From positions 248,001-312,000 of the forward strand of contig NZ_NIZW01000004.1 of assembly GCF_002727185.1 (NCBI RefSeq): a DNA stretch of 64,000 bases. Direction: 5' to 3'. Shown here one piece after another: positions 19,397-27,756 of the stretch (its first letter is position 1; each line of letters starts with the position of its first letter). A program made the position numbers and the translations under genes. Source of the DNA: Rhodopirellula bahusiensis (lineage in GTDB: Bacteria > Planctomycetota > Planctomycetia > Pirellulales > Pirellulaceae). Below the pieces are notes generated by a model that saw only the letters and a program-made list of their open reading frames with translations, did not search any database and had not been told where the DNA came from.

Positions 19397-20695
19397 ATGT
19401 CCAACGAATCACTGAGTCAAAACCAAGTCGAAAATCTTCTGAAGGCCATGGAAACGGCCGATTTGGACGAGGAAGGTACCGACGCACCCACTGGAAACAA
19501 AGACTCGGCTGATTCCACGCGCACGACCGAAGCCAACAAAGACGCGGCAGTTGGCTCCTCCGCCCCCGCTATTGGGGCAGCCCATCCGTCGGACTCCAAG
19601 CCCTACTCGCCCGGTGTGCCCTCCGGCGCCAGAGTCACCGCCTACGACTTCAAACGCCCCGAACGCGTTGGCAAAGACCAAATGCGGGCGATGCATTCGT
19701 TGCACGAGTCGATCGCTCGGAATTTTGGTGCGTCGATCTCCGGCCTGCTCCGGACGATGATCGAGGTCAAACTACTGAGCGTTGACCAACTCACTTACAG
19801 CGAATTCGTCTTCAGCCTCGACAATCCCAGCTGTTTCAACATCATCCGACCGATGCCTTTGGAAGGTCACTGGGTGCTCGACATCGCACCCGGACTGGCT
19901 TACGCGATCATCGATCGAATGCTCGGAGGCGACCCCGTCCCGGGCGAAACGATCCGCCGGCCGCTCACCGAAATCGAAACACGATTGATGTGCCGCGTCG
20001 TGGAACTGTTCCTGGAACAAATCGTTCCGGCTTGGGAAAATGTGATTCAGCTGGAACCGACAATCCACACCACCGAGAGCAACCCGCAGCTCGCCCAAAT
20101 TGTGCCTCCCAATGAAGTGGCAATCTTGGTGGGATTCGAGGTCCTGCTCGGCAAAAACCGGGGGATGATGAATCTGTGCATCCCCTTCAATTCGATTGAA
20201 AAATACAACGCGAAACTCTCTCGCAATGGTTGGGTTGGCTACGGAAAAGCCAACCCGACACCCAAATCGCGACGAAAGATCGCTGACAGCATTGACGCCG
20301 CCCCCGTGGACGTCGTCGTGACGTTGGCCCGGTCGAAAATCAAAACCAGCGATTTGCTGGATCTCAGCGTTGGTGACATCATTACCACCGAGCAAGCGGC
20401 GAGCTCCGCCTTGGAATTGTCCGTTCAGGACGTCCCGAAATTCGCAGCGGTTGCTGGTGCCTACAAAGGCAAAAAGGCGGTTCAGGTCCAAACGACCATT
20501 GAACAAAAACCGAGCGACGCGGAAGAAGCAGACCCAGAAGAACAATTGGAGAACGACTCCCAAAACTCAGCGGAACCAGAATCCGCTCCCGCTGAGGTGG
20601 AGAACGTCTTGAACTCGGCCCAGGCCAAGAATCAAGCACCACCGCCTAAGCCGATCCCGAAAGCCGAGCCCAAAAAGCCAGCCTCAGCTCAGTAG
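19397..20695 (+). CDS. fliM: Flagellar motor switch protein FliM
   Basis: FliM is part of the cytoplasmic C-ring; it binds CheY-P through its N-terminus and FliG through its middle domain, and it switches rotation direction. The N-terminal LSQNQVENLL helix matches the CheY-binding peptide. It is followed by a charged linker, the YDFKRPERV entry to the middle domain at about 76, and LDNPSCFNIIRPMPLEGHW with the GG-containing DRMLGGDP near 175. The C-terminal SPOA (FliN-like) domain spans roughly 300-365. The protein is 432 residues against about 330-350 for typical FliM. The extra length is an acidic then Pro/Lys-rich tail after about 365. No other flagellar gene lies in the window, and FliN is not adjacent. 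Confidence 0.92.
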   Translation: MSNESLSQNQVENLLKAMETADLDEEGTDAPTGNKDSADSTRTTEANKDAAVGSSAPAIGAAHPSDSKPYSPGVPSGARVTAYDFKRPERVGKDQMRAMHSLHESIARNFGASISGLLRTMIEVKLLSVDQLTYSEFVFSLDNPSCFNIIRPMPLEGHWVLDIAPGLAYAIIDRMLGGDPVPGETIRRPLTEIETRLMCRVVELFLEQIVPAWENVIQLEPTIHTTESNPQLAQIVPPNEVAILVGFEVLLGKNRGMMNLCIPFNSIEKYNAKLSRNGWVGYGKANPTPKSRRKIADSIDAAPVDVVVTLARSKIKTSDLLDLSVGDIITTEQAASSALELSVQDVPKFAAVAGAYKGKKAVQVQTTIEQKPSDAEEADPEEQLENDSQNSAEPESAPAEVENVLNSAQAKNQAPPPKPIPKAEPKKPASAQ

Positions 20696-21378: not shown

Positions 21379-22623
21379 ATGACACGCTCGATCCGCAGCC
21401 AGATCCCCTCCATCGCCCTTTTCGCAACTCTTGTTGTTGTCTTTTCAGGAATGGAATGTCCCGGCCAGGACACCTCCGACAACAGCGAATTGGGACCCAA
21501 AATCCAGTTCGAAACCATCGACGGTGACGCACAATCAGGACAGCTAAGCAACCTGACGGGTTCGTCTCTCAGCGTGATTTTGGCCGATGGGCAGTCCAAA
21601 CAGTGGGAATTGACCGAGATCGCACGCATCCAATTCGAAGGATCTCAGCAAACCAGCCCACCGACTCGCGTCATCCTTCGCGGGGGCTCAGAAGTGGCTT
21701 CCGCCGCGACTTCCATGGAAGGCGAAAATTTGCTGGTTCGCTCTTTGGGCCAACCTCCCCTCACGGTGTCCATCCGCTCCGTTCAATCCATTCGATTCCG
21801 AGCCCCGTCGTCAGCGACTGACGCTGACTGGCTCGCTCTGGTGGAAGAACCTCAGCGTCGCGACCGCTTGGTCATCCGCCGGGAAGGCAACGCCCTGGAT
21901 CCGATCGAAGGCACGATCCTTGAGATCAAGCGAGATTTCGTTTCCTTCGACCTCAGTGGCAACATCGTCGATGCTCCATTGCAAAAGCTTGAAGGCGTGA
22001 TCTTCTCGACCACCGGCGATCGCCCAACAGAGAAACTGATTCAAATTAAAGACCAACGTGGATCACGGTGGATGGCGGAGCAAGCGAATTGGAATCCAAC
22101 CGATCGCTCGCTAGAGCTGGATCTGGGCGACGACATCACACATTCCATTCCTGTGTCGCAGCTATTGGAAATCCAGTTCTCCGGGGGAATCCTTTATCTT
22201 GTCGACGCGGAAGTTGCCCAGCAGCACCAACCGGATGCCCTCAGCACGCTTGTCGGCGATGACTTGGCATCGACTTGGTTTGCAACGGAATCAAATGGCA
22301 AAAACCTCACGACCATGCTGTCGTCCGATCACGTTGTTCGTGTTCCCGATGGTTATCAAAAGCTAGTTGCCGCTGTCCGTATGTCATCCGATGTGGACCA
22401 GTTCACTCCATTGAAGCTGTCGGTGTTGATGGATAATCGCGTCGTCTGGACACTCGACATCGAAGACCGCAAACCGCACGGGCTGATTCTGCCACTCGAA
22501 GACGCGCGGCGTCTTACGCTTCGCACCTCCCTAACGGGTGAAGATGCATCCAAACCCAAACGGTCAATCGACCAAGCCTTGGGACATCGAGTCGAGTGGC
22601 TGGGTGCCCGCTTGCTAAAATAG
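21379..22623 (+). CDS. Secreted planctomycete protein, possible NPCBM-like C-terminal domain
   Basis: The 414-residue product starts with a basic n-region and hydrophobic core (IALFATLVVVFSG), with probable cleavage near residue 28, so it should be exported. Two similar beta-rich blocks follow at about 35-110 and 165-260; each carries the pattern 'xxG.L..L....v.f....G......L..i..I.F', which resembles repeated SH3-like folds. The C-terminal 120 residues (YQKLVAAVRMSS, LSVLMDNRVVWTLDI, LTLRTSL) resemble an NPCBM-type carbohydrate-binding fold, but this is by eye only. It lies 26 bases upstream of the S1C protease gene and is probably the first gene of that operon. Function unknown. Confidence 0.75.
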   Translation: MTRSIRSQIPSIALFATLVVVFSGMECPGQDTSDNSELGPKIQFETIDGDAQSGQLSNLTGSSLSVILADGQSKQWELTEIARIQFEGSQQTSPPTRVILRGGSEVASAATSMEGENLLVRSLGQPPLTVSIRSVQSIRFRAPSSATDADWLALVEEPQRRDRLVIRREGNALDPIEGTILEIKRDFVSFDLSGNIVDAPLQKLEGVIFSTTGDRPTEKLIQIKDQRGSRWMAEQANWNPTDRSLELDLGDDITHSIPVSQLLEIQFSGGILYLVDAEVAQQHQPDALSTLVGDDLASTWFATESNGKNLTTMLSSDHVVRVPDGYQKLVAAVRMSSDVDQFTPLKLSVLMDNRVVWTLDIEDRKPHGLILPLEDARRLTLRTSLTGEDASKPKRSIDQALGHRVEWLGARLLK

Positions 22624-22649: not shown

Positions 22650-24614
22650 ATGCCTTCTGCACTGACGACTTCACACAGACAAAAACGATTCGCCATGCCA
22701 TCTCGATGTCTCGGTTCTGCCTTGGTGCGAATCGGTTGCTTGACGTTTGCTCTCCTTGCATCGGTTGCGTGGTTGACCACCCAAGTTGATGCAGAAGAGT
22801 CATCACTCTTGCCCGACGAACAACGTTGGATCGAAGAATTCGAATCCGCTCGAATCGCTGGCATTGCCAAAGCCATGCCTTCGACGGTCATGGTGTTCGT
22901 TCCCGGTGGTGGAGGCGGCGGAAGCGGTGTCCTGATCAGCGAGGACGGCTACGCGTTGACCAACTTTCACGTCAGCAGTCCCGCGGGAACCTACATGCGT
23001 TGCGGGCTCAGCGACGGCAAAGTTTATGACGCCGTGGTGGTCGGCATCGATCCAGTTGGCGACTTGGCATTGATTCAGTTGCTAGGGCGAGAAGACTTCT
23101 CCACAGCCGAATTTGTACCCAGTCGCTCGGTCCAAGTTGGCGACTGGTGCTTTGCGATCGGCAATCCGTTCTTGCTGGCAACCAACCTTCAACCGACCGT
23201 CACCGCAGGAATCATCAGCGGTGTGCGTCGATATCAGTATCCTTCTGGCACGCTGTTGGAATACGGAAACTGCTTTCAAACCGATGCCTCGATCAACCCG
23301 GGCAACTCCGGCGGACCCTTGTACGACAACGACGGTGACTTGATTGGAATCATCGGCCGAGCCTCATTTGAAAAACGCGGGCGAGTCAACGTGGGAGTTG
23401 GCTACGCGATCTCGGGTGACCAAGCTCAAAACTTCCTCGGATGTCTGCACAGTGGTCGAGTCGTTGACCATGCCACGCTGGGTGCCACCGTTGGTACGGA
23501 CGAAGACGGCAGCGTCCGGGTCACCAACATTCTCAGCTCCAGCGATGCCTATCGCCGCGGACTCAGGTATGGCGACGAGATACTAGAGATCGATGGCCAA
23601 GTCATCCAAACCGCCAACGATGTCCAGAACATCCTTGCGACGTTCCCGTCCTCTTGGCGAATCCCGATCACGTATCGGCAAGAGGGAACCAGCGTTGAGA
23701 CCTTGGTTCGTTTGGCCAGCGTTCATCGCGGATCCGAATTACTCGAGAAAATGAAGTCGGCTTTGCCGCCACCTCCCCCCGCGCCGCCCAAGCCACCGGC
23801 ATCACCTGAATCAGATGATGCGTCCCCTGAATCACCCGAAGATTCGAATGCTAAATCATCGCCGGATGAACCCGAGCAGTCTCAGCCGGACAACTCAAAG
23901 AAAGCGATGAAAGACGCGGCCGGCGAACCAGTTCCCGAGATCGCCGTCAATCAAATCGAAGTGCGAGAAGGCTACGCGAATTACTACTACAACCAACTGC
24001 AACAAACGAAGTTCATCGAGCGACTTCGCCGGCAGTTCGAAGAAGCAACCACAGATGATTCCGTTTGGAAAATCAACGGCACAGCGATTCCAGTTGCCGA
24101 CAATCAACAGCCAAGCGAGTTCCAATTAACCATCGGTGAGGGGCAGTTCGAATTCAAAATCGGGAATGACGTGGAACGTTTGTCGCGTGGAGATGAACTG
24201 CTTCGCGTGGTTGATGAACAACGTGACGCTGGCATCCTTGCATGCTTGAGCGCACTCCAACGAATGCTGGCGATCGGCCCCAAGCAATTTGGTGACACCT
24301 ACTACTGGGGCACGATGCCGTTGTCCGGCAAACGCCCGCTTCGCGACACTGTGATCGGAATCCATTCTGATCTCGAAACCCGCTTCTTGCATCATCCCGA
24401 ATCGGAACGCCTGGAAGTGATCGAATCCATCGCCGGCACCGACACCGATCCCGCCGAACTTTGGTTCGGAACAGACAACGGCGGAATCCCATCGACGATG
24501 CAGCTTCGCTACGGAACGACGACAGTCCTGAACCTGCAAATCGATGATTGGTCTGTCGAGCAAGCCGGCCAACCACAAGCTCCCGACGCTCCGATCAATG
24601 GAGATGCATCATGA
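22650..24614 (+). CDS. HtrA/Deg-type serine protease (S1C) with PDZ domain
   Basis: This is an exported trypsin-like protease of the HtrA/Deg type, expected to degrade or sense misfolded envelope proteins. With the ATG at 22650 (654 residues) the triad is intact: His107 in ALTNFHV, Asp138 in DPVGDLALI and Ser220 in NPGNSGGPL. One PDZ domain covers about 258-345 (VTNILSSSDAYRRGLRYGDEIL). A Pro/Glu/Ser-rich linker at about 370-430 leads to a C-terminal region of about 215 residues that I do not recognise. An in-frame ATG at 22695 gives a more normal signal peptide (LVRIGCLTFALLASVAWLTTQVDAEE) and may be the real start. The stop overlaps the next start as ATGA at 24611, which indicates translational coupling with the following pseudoprotease. 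Confidence 0.88.
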   Translation: MPSALTTSHRQKRFAMPSRCLGSALVRIGCLTFALLASVAWLTTQVDAEESSLLPDEQRWIEEFESARIAGIAKAMPSTVMVFVPGGGGGGSGVLISEDGYALTNFHVSSPAGTYMRCGLSDGKVYDAVVVGIDPVGDLALIQLLGREDFSTAEFVPSRSVQVGDWCFAIGNPFLLATNLQPTVTAGIISGVRRYQYPSGTLLEYGNCFQTDASINPGNSGGPLYDNDGDLIGIIGRASFEKRGRVNVGVGYAISGDQAQNFLGCLHSGRVVDHATLGATVGTDEDGSVRVTNILSSSDAYRRGLRYGDEILEIDGQVIQTANDVQNILATFPSSWRIPITYRQEGTSVETLVRLASVHRGSELLEKMKSALPPPPPAPPKPPASPESDDASPESPEDSNAKSSPDEPEQSQPDNSKKAMKDAAGEPVPEIAVNQIEVREGYANYYYNQLQQTKFIERLRRQFEEATTDDSVWKINGTAIPVADNQQPSEFQLTIGEGQFEFKIGNDVERLSRGDELLRVVDEQRDAGILACLSALQRMLAIGPKQFGDTYYWGTMPLSGKRPLRDTVIGIHSDLETRFLHHPESERLEVIESIAGTDTDPAELWFGTDNGGIPSTMQLRYGTTTVLNLQIDDWSVEQAGQPQAPDAPINGDAS

Positions 24615-25690
24615 GCCGTACACCAAACCTCGAACAAGAGAACTTTCGACCGCGTCATGCCGATCTTGGCACTTCGTCGTGGTTGAAAATCCTCCTAGGG
24701 TGCATCGCGTGGTCAATCCTCGCATGTCTCACACCGAATAGTTTGTCGGCTCAACCGTCGATGGCGCGACCTTCCGACCAAGCCCAACCGAAGATGGTCA
24801 AGGTCTACGGTGCCGGTGGACTGTCTGGACTGGAAGCCTATCAAAGTGGTTTTCTCGTTTCTCCTGCTGGCCACATCGCGACGGCTTGGAGCTACGTGCT
24901 GGACGTTGACCCAGTCGTCATTCTTCACGACGGACGCCGATTCGAATCCAAGATTGTCGGCTTTGAACCCGCCCTCGAACTTGCGGTTCTGAAGATCGAA
25001 GCGGATGACCTGTCGTTCTTTCCAATCCCTGAAACGAATTCGATTTCCTGGGGAGATCCTGTTCTCGCTGTCAGCAACCTGTTCGGCATCGCGACGGGCA
25101 ACGAACCCGCCAGCGTGATGCAAGGACGAGTCGCTGCGAAAACAAAACTCGACGCCCGCCGCGGGACCTTTCAAACACCCTATCGCGGTGAAGTCCTGCT
25201 GCTCGACTTGGTTGCCAATAACCCCGGTGCCGCCGGCGGAGCCTTGATCAATCCCGAAGGCGAATTCCTTGGAATGCTTGGCAAAGAGCTTCGCGATCGA
25301 AAGACCGGCGTTTGGCTGAATTACGCGATCCCCGCCGACGTGCTCCGCCAACCCATCGGCGACATCATCGCGGGCCGCAAGACGACACTTCCCGATGAAT
25401 CCAACCCCGTTCTGCCTCGCGAAAAATCCCACTCACCAACCAGCCTTGGCATTGGGTTGATTCCGGATGTGCTCGAGAACACACCGGCCTACATCGACTT
25501 CATTGAAAAAGAATCGGCCGCGGACCGTGTGGACCTTCGGCCCGATGATTTGATTGTGCTCGTCAACGGTCGCCGCGTCTCGCACCAACGTGCTTTTCGC
25601 GATTTGCTGAGACGAATCGACCGGCGCGACCAAGTCGCCTTGGTGGTCCAACGAGACAACGAAATTCTAGACTTGGTACTACGCCCATGA
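24611..25690 (+). CDS. S1C-fold pseudoprotease with PDZ-like domain (all three catalytic residues replaced)
   Basis: The 359-residue product has an export signal (about 24-48, ending LSAQ), an S1C-like body and a C-terminal PDZ-like segment at about 275-355 (LGIGLIPDVLENTPAYIDFI, LRPDDLIVLVNGRRV). Aligned by eye on the upstream protease, the histidine position is Ser94 (ATAWSYV), the aspartate position is Glu123 (ALELAVLKI) and the serine position is Ala208 (NPGAAGGALIN). The fold motifs GHIATA, LAVLKI and NPG..GG are kept, so this looks like a maintained inactive relative and not a decayed gene. The start overlaps the previous stop and its own stop overlaps the next start (ATGA at 25687), so the three protease-fold genes are tightly coupled. 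A scaffolding or regulatory role for the active protease is inferred. Confidence 0.82.
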   Translation: MSRTPNLEQENFRPRHADLGTSSWLKILLGCIAWSILACLTPNSLSAQPSMARPSDQAQPKMVKVYGAGGLSGLEAYQSGFLVSPAGHIATAWSYVLDVDPVVILHDGRRFESKIVGFEPALELAVLKIEADDLSFFPIPETNSISWGDPVLAVSNLFGIATGNEPASVMQGRVAAKTKLDARRGTFQTPYRGEVLLLDLVANNPGAAGGALINPEGEFLGMLGKELRDRKTGVWLNYAIPADVLRQPIGDIIAGRKTTLPDESNPVLPREKSHSPTSLGIGLIPDVLENTPAYIDFIEKESAADRVDLRPDDLIVLVNGRRVSHQRAFRDLLRRIDRRDQVALVVQRDNEILDLVLRP

Positions 25691-27756
25691 TTCGCGAACT
25701 TCCTTTGGCAAACCCGCCTCGCTCCATGCGATTCCATCGCTTGCTCAGTCCCGTCAAAGCGTTGTTATCGTTCGCGTTGCTCCTTGGCATGGCATCCACT
25801 TCCATCGCTGAAGATCCCACGCCCGCTCGCTATCAAAGCATTCTGGCAAAAGCGGTTCGCCATGTCGCCCAAAGAGCATTGCCCTCCGTCGTGACCATCG
25901 AAGTCATCGGCGTGATGCAAGCCGATGGTGAGGTGCGGCAAGACGCGCCGACCTCGGGAGTGGTGATCGACGAACAGGGCCACGTGCTGACGTCCTCTTG
26001 GGTGACCGGTGGTGATTCAGCCAGCATCATCGTCAACGCCCCGAGCGGCAAACGGTATCCCGCGGAAGTCGTTGCCAAAGACGAACACCGAGACCTTGTC
26101 CTTTTGAAAATCGCGTCCGGCGACGAGACATGGCAACCGATCGAATTCCCGAGCACCGACCAAACGACCGATACAGTCGGAGAAACCGTGGTCGCAGTGG
26201 CCCGGTACGGAGAGATCAACACTCCAATGGTCAGCACTGGAATTCTCTCTGCAATCGGTCGCCTCGACGGAACCGCAATCCAAACCGATGCCAGGATCTC
26301 ACCCGCGTTTTACGGTGGTCCTTTGGTCGATCTGAAAGGTCGCTTCCGTGGCATCGTGATTCCCGCGGTGGGTGAGGGCGGCGCCGAAGAGTCGACCGCA
26401 TGGTACGACTCCGGAATCGCTTTCGCGGTCCCCAGTCCGATCATCGCTCAAAAGCTGGACCAACTGCGTCGTGGCGAAAACATCCAACAAGGCTTGCTCG
26501 GCTTTGTCGTCGCCGGCAGCGATCCGTACGCCGATGGAACCGAACTGAGTGTCGTTCGAAAACGTTCGCCTGCTGACAAAGCCGGCCTGAAAGTCGGCGA
26601 TGAACTGAAAACAATCGGCGGCCAAAACGTCACGCGACGACAGGAAATCAAACTCGCGTTGGGTCGGTACGACGCTGGCAACGAAGTCGAAATTGAGTAC
26701 GAACGCGATGGAAAGCGAATGTCCTCCACGGCGACGATGATCGCCACGATCCCGCCGCTTCAGCCGCAATTCATCGGCGTGATCGCAGCCGATGAAATGG
26801 AAGAAAAGACGGCTGACGACTCTACCGAAGACAAATCGAAACCATCGGTTTCAGTCATCGTCCAAAACGTTTGGAATCAATCGCCCGCCGACGGCATCCT
26901 GAAGATCAACGACCGTTTGATCGAACTCGACGGTGCCCCCATCCTTGACACCAATGCACTTCGGCAGCGACTTTGGGCATCCGATCCCGAAATCGCGATG
27001 GAACTAATAATCGAACGCGATGGCGAAACTCAAACCGTCTCGATCGACCCGCTAACGCTCGACGGGCCGCTGGATCGCATCCAATCTTTCAAGACACCCG
27101 CTCCATTGGCCGCAGACGCATGGAACGTCGAAGAGCTACAACTGCCTGACATCACCAACGAAGCAGCGATCTGGTTCCCCAAATCAGAACTCGCGGCAGA
27201 AACAGATCCCGACGAAACGCCGTCGTCGCCATTGGCACTGGCGATTGTTCTGGCGCCTCCCAAAGACCGCGATCCATCCGCGATCCTGGGCCCATGGAAA
27301 GACCTGGCCCGTGAACGTCACGTCGCGGTGTGCGTCATCTGCAGCGATGGTGACGACCAATGGCGTCCCAACGAAATCGACGCGATCACCAAGCTGACAG
27401 CGGCATCACTCAAACGATCCGGTGCTTTGCCATCCGCGGTCTCACTGATCGGTGGAGGAGCATTCACGATGAATGAAAAAGCTAACCCCGCAGATTCGAT
27501 GGCACTGGGAGCCTCGCTCTCGACAACAAACGTGTTTGCTGGCGTGGCAATATCAAACGAGACCGAACCGCCCGCGGTTCGCCTTCGCAAAGACGGACCG
27601 CCGCGATTGCTTCGAGTCTTGATCCCAAACCCGCCCGATTCAGAATTGCCGTTCTGGGCCGAGACACTTCGCCGAATCGGGTGCCCGCTGCAGACCACCC
27701 TCACGCTCAATCGCGACCTCTGCCTTCAATGGACTCAATCGCTGCTCGCCATGTGA
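25687..27756 (+). CDS. Second S1C-fold pseudoprotease with two PDZ domains and a C-terminal extension
   Basis: The 689-residue product has a signal peptide (LLSFALLLGMASTSIAED, about 26-43). Its S1C domain keeps Asp136 (HRDLVLLKI) but has Trp105 at the histidine position (VLTSSWV) and Tyr209 at the serine position (SPAFYGGPL), so proteolysis is not expected. PDZ1 spans about 255-340 (VRKRSPADKAGLKVGDEL) and PDZ2 about 365-455 (NQSPADGILKINDRLIEL). The last 200 residues (LALAIVLAPP, VAVCVICSDGDDQW, VSLIGGGAFTM) look like an alpha/beta-hydrolase-type core without a GxSxG nucleophile elbow; that reading is tentative. It is the third gene of the coupled protease set; the lipase-like gene follows 130 bases later. 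Confidence 0.82.
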   Translation: MIRELPLANPPRSMRFHRLLSPVKALLSFALLLGMASTSIAEDPTPARYQSILAKAVRHVAQRALPSVVTIEVIGVMQADGEVRQDAPTSGVVIDEQGHVLTSSWVTGGDSASIIVNAPSGKRYPAEVVAKDEHRDLVLLKIASGDETWQPIEFPSTDQTTDTVGETVVAVARYGEINTPMVSTGILSAIGRLDGTAIQTDARISPAFYGGPLVDLKGRFRGIVIPAVGEGGAEESTAWYDSGIAFAVPSPIIAQKLDQLRRGENIQQGLLGFVVAGSDPYADGTELSVVRKRSPADKAGLKVGDELKTIGGQNVTRRQEIKLALGRYDAGNEVEIEYERDGKRMSSTATMIATIPPLQPQFIGVIAADEMEEKTADDSTEDKSKPSVSVIVQNVWNQSPADGILKINDRLIELDGAPILDTNALRQRLWASDPEIAMELIIERDGETQTVSIDPLTLDGPLDRIQSFKTPAPLAADAWNVEELQLPDITNEAAIWFPKSELAAETDPDETPSSPLALAIVLAPPKDRDPSAILGPWKDLARERHVAVCVICSDGDDQWRPNEIDAITKLTAASLKRSGALPSAVSLIGGGAFTMNEKANPADSMALGASLSTTNVFAGVAISNETEPPAVRLRKDGPPRLLRVLIPNPPDSELPFWAETLRRIGCPLQTTLTLNRDLCLQWTQSLLAM

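Follow-up and report, generated by a model that had tools for sequence, protein, structure and literature searches.

A planctomycete gene cassette encoding one predicted HtrA protease and two conserved pseudoproteases

Three consecutive genes in Rhodopirellula bahusiensis encode an HtrA-type protein with an intact catalytic triad (g1) and two relatives in which the triad is broken (g2 and g3). From the sequences compared we conclude that this trio is ancient and that its dead copies are kept by selection. On balance, we favour a three-component envelope protease in which the two pseudoproteases assemble with, scaffold or activate the one protease. Coordinates below refer to the window, the whole 64,000-nucleotide stretch of R. 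bahusiensis DNA that was analysed.

Cassette organization

The initial annotation described a unit at 22650-27756 whose genes are joined by ATGA overlaps. Both junctions, the coordinates of the trio and its reading frames were correct on re-reading, but the real unit is bigger and includes a fourth gene, g0 (21379-22623). Besides g0, the MoxR/Bat operon link seen in relatives and the probably dead esterase-like domain of g3 were absent from that annotation. The cassette is laid out as follows:

21379-22623, + strand: g0, secreted NPCBM-domain protein, first gene of a conserved four-gene cassette
22650-24614, + strand: g1, predicted active HtrA-type protease with PDZ and a C-terminal domain; possible start at 22695
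24611-24614, + strand: ATGA overlap of g1 and g2, read from the sequence
24611-25690, + strand: g2, pseudoprotease with S1C fold and PDZ, triad positions Ser94/Glu123/Ala208
25687-25690, + strand: ATGA overlap of g2 and g3, read from the sequence
25687-27756, + strand: g3, pseudoprotease with an S1C fold, a pair of PDZ domains and a C-terminus resembling alpha/beta-hydrolases

A signal-peptide-like stretch was read by eye at the start of all four proteins. S1C, which we take to be the MEROPS label for the HtrA family of g1-g3, was said to keep its fold motifs in all three, and Pfam Trypsin_2 indeed spans the whole domain in each (g1 104.7, g2 72.0 and g3 81.5 bits; cut-off 27.6), with PDZ domains after it. 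Alignment also placed the triad positions as claimed, at His107/Asp138/Ser220 in g1, Ser94/Glu123/Ala208 in g2 and Trp105/Asp136/Tyr209 in g3. When 20 Trypsin_2 proteins of the same genome were aligned (a 21st, a partial match of 23.5 bits, was left out), only g2 and g3 proved to have lost both the His and the Ser of the triad. The triad loss is not chance. The serine stretches of two others among the 20 (L019 and L020) were atypical.

The catalytic member

The following features were located in g1:

22920-23351, + strand: Trypsin_2/S1C domain (PF13365, residues 91-234, 104.7 bits)
22968-22970, + strand: codon of catalytic His107; His conserved in 89 of 91 rows, with a gap in the remaining 2
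23061-23063, + strand: codon of catalytic Asp138; Asp in 91 of 91 rows
23307-23309, + strand: codon of catalytic Ser220, in NPGNSGGP; Ser in 91 of 91 rows
23910-24575, + strand: C-terminal domain, well folded in the model, with a faint LolA/LolB-like signal

Like DegP, DegQ and DegS in fold, triad and PDZ layout, g1 combines a Trypsin_2 domain bearing the His-Asp-Ser triad with a PDZ domain C-terminal to it (PF00595, 28.7 bits, cut-off 23.2), and its triad and fold point to a proteolytically active, trimer-forming HtrA. Scores for the NCBIfam DegP/HtrA subfamily fell below the cut-off of 416.2 bits in all three proteins (g1 191, g2 92, g3 153), and going by these scores g1 is an HtrA relative that we do not file as a DegP-type member. 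Met16 (window 22695) was invariant in 33 rows and may be the true start.

The AlphaFold2 model of g1 had a pLDDT of 84.3 and a pTM of 0.82, and block means within the C-terminal domain were 83-97 pLDDT. In Pfam, 11 of 28 members gave a DUF4292 match at this C-terminus (E 1.5e-4 at best), and LolB and LolA_like were matched by one of 28 each (E 0.024 and 0.18). The window's g1 C-terminus alone matched none of these three families, a search against PDB sequences gave nothing better than E 0.55, and a comparison of the C-terminal profile with a single LolA_like protein was negative. Setting the g1 model against viral structures gave no useful lead. We regard a LolA/LolB identity as a lead from a faint signal.

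The two pseudoproteases

The positions that set g2 and g3 apart from g1 are given here with the residues found in relatives:

24890-24892, + strand: g2 Ser94, in place of the catalytic His; 56 of 61 family rows likewise have Ser
25232-25234, + strand: g2 Ala208, in place of the catalytic Ser; 54 of 61 family rows likewise have Ala
25999-26001, + strand: g3 Trp105, in place of the catalytic His; among 57 rows the residue is F in 31, Y in 8, I in 7, W in 5 and another in 6
26311-26313, + strand: g3 Tyr209, where the nucleophile would be; Tyr is shared by 56 of 57 distinct rows in one set and by 39 of 39 in another
27118-27753, + strand: C-terminal domain of g3, esterase-like (alpha/beta-hydrolase), which has probably lost its nucleophile

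An intact His or Ser in g2 or g3, which would have undone the initial reading, was looked for by alignment and none was seen. More than one triad residue occurred in 0 of 99 distinct aligned g2 rows (L110, being a fusion, is out of the g2 profile). At the His position of g3 a second set of 39 rows held F 32, W 5 and Y 2, and overall the serine position was Tyr in 95 and Phe in 1 of 96 distinct rows, with the following GG kept. The claim that g3 loses two triad residues and keeps Asp136 applies to the window copy, but Asp is not a family feature (5 of 57 and 0 of 39 rows); it was present at position 136 in 21 of 80 named loci.

Among the aligned relatives, no near-invariant His that might serve a shifted triad was found in the S1C region of g2 or g3, the best two His columns reaching 65% (His88) and 30% in g2 and 22% and 14% in g3. 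A shifted or rebuilt triad was judged unlikely for this reason.

The AlphaFold2 model of g3 (pLDDT 83.3, pTM 0.69) found its best Foldseek matches in DegQ/DegP (E 7e-31), with DegQ the closest. A profile of the g3 C-terminus from 29 relatives matched the esterase LC-Est1C among PDB sequences (E 3.2e-8), and in Pfam BD-FAE and Abhydrolase_2 were matched by 18 and 17 of the 29 members, respectively, at E up to 1; the window's g3 C-terminus alone had no hydrolase match in Pfam. Several matches of this profile to the TAL-effector Hax3 were set aside as repeat-driven. The GxSxG elbow held Ser in 2 of 61 rows, in an alignment that is poor in the window's clade, and the nucleophile has probably been lost from the domain in most relatives. 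These C-terminal counts leave out three short second-type g3 proteins (L107-L109) and two shorter g3 frames (L078 and L080). The esterase-like domain is missing from g3 in second-type cassettes and in cassettes from outside the class.

Distribution, gene order and fusions

A genome search showed that the trio and its conserved substitutions are found again in other members of the family and outside it. Strong g2 relatives were present in 126 of 149 family genomes and more distant ones in 8 more; neither was found in 15, of which 6 are 91-95% complete (G005, G014, G035, G054, G067 and G093). A search for g1 in six genomes without g2 returned generic HtrA matches only. Phylum-wide, 40 of 246 genomes held both g2 and g3, 1 held g3 only and 205 held neither, counts that depend on cuts chosen after the searches: g2 scores had a clear gap (8e-52 to 7e-37), g3 scores had none (3.8e-76, then 9.5e-74 in G154) and were cut with the g2 set in view, and tandem pairs just under the g3 cut lie outside the counts. 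Genome G338, a 1340-contig assembly, had g1 and g3 and no strong g2. In a species-level genome collection, 543 stretches with g3-type motifs encode a g3 relative.

Gene order was g1-g2-g3 on one strand in all 70 named loci holding all three genes, and in the remaining 10 of 80 either g1 or g2 was missing from the fetched stretch. These loci overlap partly with the family alignment rows, and the two counts are kept apart. All three genes were present in 55 of 60 fetched family regions and in order in 55 of 55; of the other five regions, three were cut by contig ends, one held a fusion and one (L061, genome G028) lacked g3, yet G028 retains g3 unlinked. The same order was found in other families.

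In two genera the cassette genes have drifted apart on the chromosome, with all genes looked for still there. Genomes G235 and G253 keep g1, g2 and g3 at three separate places, and the single-contig genomes G028 and G083 retain g3 megabases from g2. Fusions joined g1 to g2 at L190, L197, L203, L208 and L209, and g2 to g3 at L110, L206 and L207, with g1 elsewhere in two of these last three genomes; no g1 was found in genome G133, which carries a g2-g3 fusion. Three of the eight fusions were each seen in a single assembly.

Selection and descent of the trio

The proposal that g2 and g3 are selected pseudoproteases, not products of decay, agrees with the conserved trio, the conserved replacement residues, the absence of a rebuilt triad and low dN/dS. 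In a comparison with the close relative G130, g2 and g3 had dN/dS values of 0.06-0.09, and g1 had 0.07-0.09. With the farther G115 the values were 0.13, 0.13 and 0.29 for g1, g2 and g3, with synonymous sites saturated. A set so faithfully kept together implies that its dead members must serve some function.

Each of g1, g2 and g3 formed one clade in the tree (97/99, 100/99 and 100/100), and a local duplication in the window species was ruled out by it. Deep branching differed between the three subtrees, mirror-tree correlations were 0.77, 0.57 and 0.40 with shared ancestry uncorrected, and raw g3 distances did not separate the two cassette types.

g0 and an operon link in relatives

A g0 match lay at most 200 bases upstream of g1 on the same strand in 60 of 80 named loci, and of the 55 family regions with the full trio, 49 had such a match. 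Of 30 aligned g0 members, 29 matched NPCBM at E no higher than 0.1 (8.8e-29 at best); the window's g0 alone reached only E 0.08. In 9 of 20 upstream regions examined, the cassette follows a MoxR-DUF58-BatA (aerotolerance) operon, at the operon end; the three families were confirmed by Pfam in one upstream region, and a profile search placed u1, u2 and u3 in L313. This linkage has been lost in the window's clade, where the MoxR/Bat genes lie elsewhere than the cassette; in the window's genome u3-u2-u1 are at 401-407 kb of contig C2, the best BatA match is at 305 kb of C2, and the cassette is on contig C4. To our knowledge, HtrA pseudoproteases are not among the usual parts of Bat operons. Since the unit is encoded with MoxR-DUF58-BatA in many relatives, it probably acts in maturing a large envelope complex or in its quality control. 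None of the literature matches listed described the trio or its MoxR/Bat link, in a search that subscription journals lie mostly outside.

Proposed role and alternatives

Under the three-component reading that we favour, g1 would be the sole catalytic subunit of an envelope protease. HtrA proteins act as trimers, from which we infer that g2 and g3 would join g1 in mixed oligomers by physical contact. Capture of substrates or signals would fall to their PDZ and extra domains, and oligomer geometry and allosteric activation would be set by the dead protease domains; in g3, the Tyr at the Ser position and the aromatic or aliphatic side chain that replaces the His would plug the former active site. 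The natural fusions and the co-retention of unlinked genes are indirect pointers to such a hetero-oligomer, and the fusions together with translational coupling favour fixed stoichiometry and contact, although genes that adjoin and overlap can fuse without their products being in contact. The five g1-g2 fusions resemble plant Deg7, which joins active and degenerate protease domains and PDZ in one chain and whose inactive domain is reported, in the portion available of PMC3473262, to take part in trimerisation. Deg7 is a single eukaryotic chain with one dead domain, whereas the window's trio consists of separate genes. More tentatively, the cassette could be an obligate hetero-oligomeric HtrA of one catalytic and two permanently inactive paralogues, a unit that predates the divergence of several planctomycete classes and was at first encoded together with MoxR-DUF58-BatA.

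It seems rather unlikely, if still a serious competitor, that g2 and g3 form homo-oligomers of their own, as ATP-independent chaperones or binding scaffolds acting in the pathway of g1 in separate oligomers. Their kept fold and PDZ domains would suit this, as would the retention of cassette genes even when unlinked and the g3 proteins without an esterase-like domain. Precedent also lies on this side: the accessible part of a 2024 review (PMC11642142) describes every HtrA protein characterised so far, including those of Gram-negative bacteria, as homo-oligomeric, and DegP, DegQ and DegS are homo-oligomers where characterised, unlike the proposed cassette. The g1-g2 and g2-g3 fusions of several lineages and the translational coupling argue against it.

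An improbable alternative is that g2 and g3 control g1 indirectly, through binding of metal, lipid or glycan or through local conditions, in no stable complex. Its model is MamE/MamO of magnetotactic Alphaproteobacteria, known here from an incomplete text of PMC4794232, where MamO, which has no triad of its own, activates MamE proteolysis, a process that depends on it, and also binds metal; contact between the two went undetected and activation required another domain. That pair is like the cassette in placing an active HtrA and a dead relative in one gene cluster, and unlike it in having two genes and a role in magnetite formation; MamO further differs from g2 and g3 by carrying Thr in place of the triad Ser, as well as a TauE transporter domain (PMC4794232, same portion). 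The NPCBM partner g0 and the faint LolA/LolB-like signal of g1 hint at ligand sensing. However, neither g2 nor g3 had a TauE match in Pfam or a well conserved pair of His columns, and NCBIfam scores for g1, g2 and g3 were 42, 37 and 44 bits for MamO and 119, 44 and 55 bits for MamE, against an equivalog cut-off of 800 for each.

We give very little credence to non-canonical catalysis by g2 or g3, for instance with Tyr209 of g3 as nucleophile. That Tyr209 is nearly invariant with its GG kept, and that His88 of g2 is moderately conserved, would fit, but both S1C regions are without a near-invariant His, nearly every g3 row has an aromatic or aliphatic side chain where the His belongs, and the esterase-like domain of g3 is also mostly without its nucleophile. 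Lastly, the missing triads could mark decaying duplicates, an idea refuted by the spread of g2 through the family and beyond the class, by dN/dS of g2 and g3 equal to that of active g1 against G130, and by replacement residues that are themselves conserved.

Implications

HtrA proteases are known as homo-oligomers, each subunit of which is able to cut. If the obligate hetero-oligomer is real, the cassette would be a bacterial HtrA that shares out catalysis, substrate capture and regulation among three gene products, and we know of no earlier bacterial HtrA with such a division of labour. The MoxR/Bat link would give a poorly understood envelope system a protease arm, and the 543 g3-type stretches amount to a large natural experiment. 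Repeated selection for active/inactive HtrA pairs has been argued in the part available of PMC4794232, and the widespread occurrence in one phylum of a set with one active and two dead members points, as the MamE/MamO proposal does, to selection that retains inactive subunits.

Gene organization and catalytic residues

Three consecutive HtrA-type genes follow g0, a secreted NPCBM-domain gene (21379–22623), and with it form the cassette g0-g1-g2-g3:

22650–24614, + strand: g1, HtrA-type gene
24611–25690, + strand: g2, HtrA-type gene
25687–27756, + strand: g3, HtrA-type gene

Both the g1/g2 and g2/g3 junctions are ATGA overlaps, as the initial annotation had described, and its claim that fold and PDZ domains are retained was borne out by Pfam, with full-length Trypsin_2 (the domain covering the S1C fold) and PDZ domain(s) in each protein. 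DegP/DegQ-type proteins were the top matches of all three alike (phmmer against PDB sequences), and the N-termini, judged by eye, are signal-peptide-like. Alignment placed the catalytic His/Asp/Ser triad at H107/D138/S220 in g1, S94/E123/A208 in g2 and W105/D136/Y209 in g3, exactly the residues first proposed; among 20 aligned Trypsin_2 proteins of the window's genome, only g2 and g3 are without both His and Ser at the aligned positions. Another adjacent pair of trypsin-like matches lies at G000:C2:458169-459981 in this genome (G000), the second partial (23.5 bits), and a frame resembling a FliM-type flagellar switch protein, judged by eye, lies upstream of the cassette at 19397–20695.

The claimed triad loss follows a replacement pattern conserved among relatives. 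Counting distinct rows from two alignments (locus L110, found in both, was counted once for g2), g1 had Ser and Asp in 91/91 rows and His in 89/91, the other two being alignment gaps. None of the 99 g2 rows had more than one triad residue (Ser in L209, His in L197, Asp in 10 rows). The serine position of g3 was Tyr in 95 of 96 rows and Phe in one; its His position was chiefly Phe, with Tyr, Trp, Ile and Leu also present and His once (L098). A named set of 80 loci, overlapping in part with these alignments, gave Tyr in 79/80 for g3 (one gap) and, for g1, Ser in 66/70 (four gaps), His in 63/70 (seven gaps) and Asp in 64/70 (five gaps, and one Asn in a row otherwise gapped). A near-invariant His was sought across the S1C regions and none was found, the top column reaching 65% in g2 and 22% in g3.

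Conservation of the cassette

In the per-genome table of matches for 149 family genomes, strong g2 relatives (E 2e-59 or better) were present in 126, the window's own included, more distant g2 only (E 4e-42 to 2e-51) in eight, and neither in 15. The three-gene order, which the initial annotation proposed to look for in other planctomycetes, was found there: g1, g2 and g3 were all present in 55 of 60 fetched family regions, in order and on one strand in 55/55, and 49 of these also showed a g0 match. In three of the remaining five (L066, L079, L105) the contig ends within the region, L110 is a g2-g3 fusion, and L061 (G028) has g3 located elsewhere. Among 246 phylum genomes, g2 matches at E 8e-52 or better occurred in 40 and g3 matches reaching at least E 3.8e-76 in 41, the two sets being identical except for G338, a fragmented assembly with g1 and g3 and without a strong g2. 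Both genes were present in 12/12 genomes of another family of the class, and 40 further regions, mostly from other families, repeated the gene order where the contig permits, save fusions and unlinked copies.

Relatives of g3 are encoded in 543 stretches of a named genome collection. The names of the best 80 all read as planctomycetes, many of them Rhodopirellula, Rubripirellula and Stieleria, the nearest being R. europaea (g3 81% identical). These 80 comprised g0-g1-g2-g3 (60), g1-g2-g3 (10), g2-g3 (4) and g3 alone (6), and the complete trios were ordered on a single strand in 70/70. The unit comprises the four genes g0–g3, larger than the trio, and it is ancient.

Some family genomes, for example G049, G053 and G097, carry alongside the main type a second cassette type that is divergent and has a shorter g3 (L107, L108, L109, L210 and relatives). 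Further S1C-type matches form adjacent pairs whose g3 scores fall slightly under the cut (G154:C77, G308:C356, G153:C181, G335:C131, G187:C184); these may be remote cassette variants.

Operon context

Upstream of 101 loci, the coiled-coil protein u2 recurs in 60 and the smaller protein u1 in 57. Twenty upstream regions had consecutive MoxR-DUF58-BatA-vWA-u3 genes (u3 being another gene of the upper operon) in nine, a partial run in four and none in seven; eight of the nine stretches overlap the fetched cassette region, and G097 has ~6 kb unread between u3 and g2. MoxR, DUF58 and BatA were confirmed in G053 with Pfam. The window's genome carries u3-u2-u1 at C2:401-407 kb (profile matches of 588, 504 and 301 bits), its top BatA match at C2:305 kb, and g0–g3 together on C4, so the four-gene cassette is a part that outlasted operon breakup in this lineage. 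The displaced u1, u2 and u3 adjoin a Pup ligase gene (PF03136, E 7e-78; L313 3386-11206, G000:C2:401-409 kb). In the close relative G130, one open frame of ~19.5 kb encoding a giant protein lies upstream of the cassette (L305 24-19542), and a BatA neighbour in an outside-class genome (L301 9442-10488) has a squalene-hopene-cyclase-like toroid domain (E 1.8e-12).

Additional domains

The predicted g3 model (pLDDT 83.3) matches DegQ/DegP. Its C-terminal domain is esterase-like, the relatives' profile matching LC-Est1C (E 3.2e-8); the window copy by itself gave no hydrolase match. The LC-Est1C esterase elbow GHSMGG aligned to a g3 stretch without that Ser, which occurred in 2/61 rows, the stretch being poorly aligned in the window's own clade. 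Since the esterase-like domain is mostly without the elbow Ser, g3 is probably a double pseudoenzyme. The domain is absent from g3 of second-type and most outside-class cassettes and present in G277 (L179). The g1 C-terminal domain was modelled confidently with no fold assigned, and kinship with LolA/LolB is only a lead. NPCBM matched 29/30 g0 members (E up to 0.1).

Evolution

In a midpoint-rooted tree of 84 S1C-PDZ regions, g1, g2 and g3 each formed one clade (support 97/99, 100/99 and 100/100). The simplest reading, not firm under midpoint rooting, is that the g2 and g3 clades each lost catalysis at their root, or that their common ancestor had already lost it. Second-type loci L107, L108, L180, L182 and L209 cluster together in every subtree, and each subtree also assigns the two G049 cassettes, L101 and L107, to separate groups. 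Deeper branching is not the same between subtrees, and raw g3 distances fail to separate the types (0.59 within G053 vs 0.66 between main-type copies).

The initial annotation took the two inactive genes to be selected rather than decaying. Against G130, dN/dS was 0.076–0.088 for g2 and 0.062–0.090 for g3 (g1 0.067–0.089), in line with that view; against G115, g2 (0.130) again resembled g1 (0.126) and g3 was higher (0.286), all values being rough with dS >1.

Natural g1-g2 fusions occur in L190, L197 and L203 (three families, one genome each) and in L208 and L209 (one genus), and g2-g3 fusions in L110, L206 and L207 (one genus); G133 (84% complete) has a g2-g3 fusion and no g1 match. G235 and G253 keep all three genes though unlinked, and g3 is unlinked yet kept in four genomes of genus g29, two of which (G028, G083) are single-contig genomes with g2 and g3 megabases apart. 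A g1 search in g2-less G005, G014, G035, G054, G067 and G314 gave generic HtrA matches only.

Proposed function

Pairing of active with inactive HtrA proteins is already known. The literature searched gave no account of a three-gene set of this kind across a phylum, with its constant loss pattern, of its fusions or of its MoxR/Bat link, and passages of PMC6411480, PMC2754498, PMC7159879 and PMC3640471 do not describe the trio. Precedents are MamE/MamO, in which MamO activates MamE without catalysis (PMC4794232), and plant Deg7, whose dead domain reportedly participates in trimerisation (PMC3473262). The main rival explanation is that g2 and g3 act separately, as chaperones; counting against mixed oligomers, HtrA proteins characterised so far are all said to be homo-oligomers (PMC11642142). 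The best-supported reading remains that g1 would be the cutting subunit and g2 and g3 its structural or regulatory helpers, assistance that we infer would most likely take the form of direct mixed oligomers.
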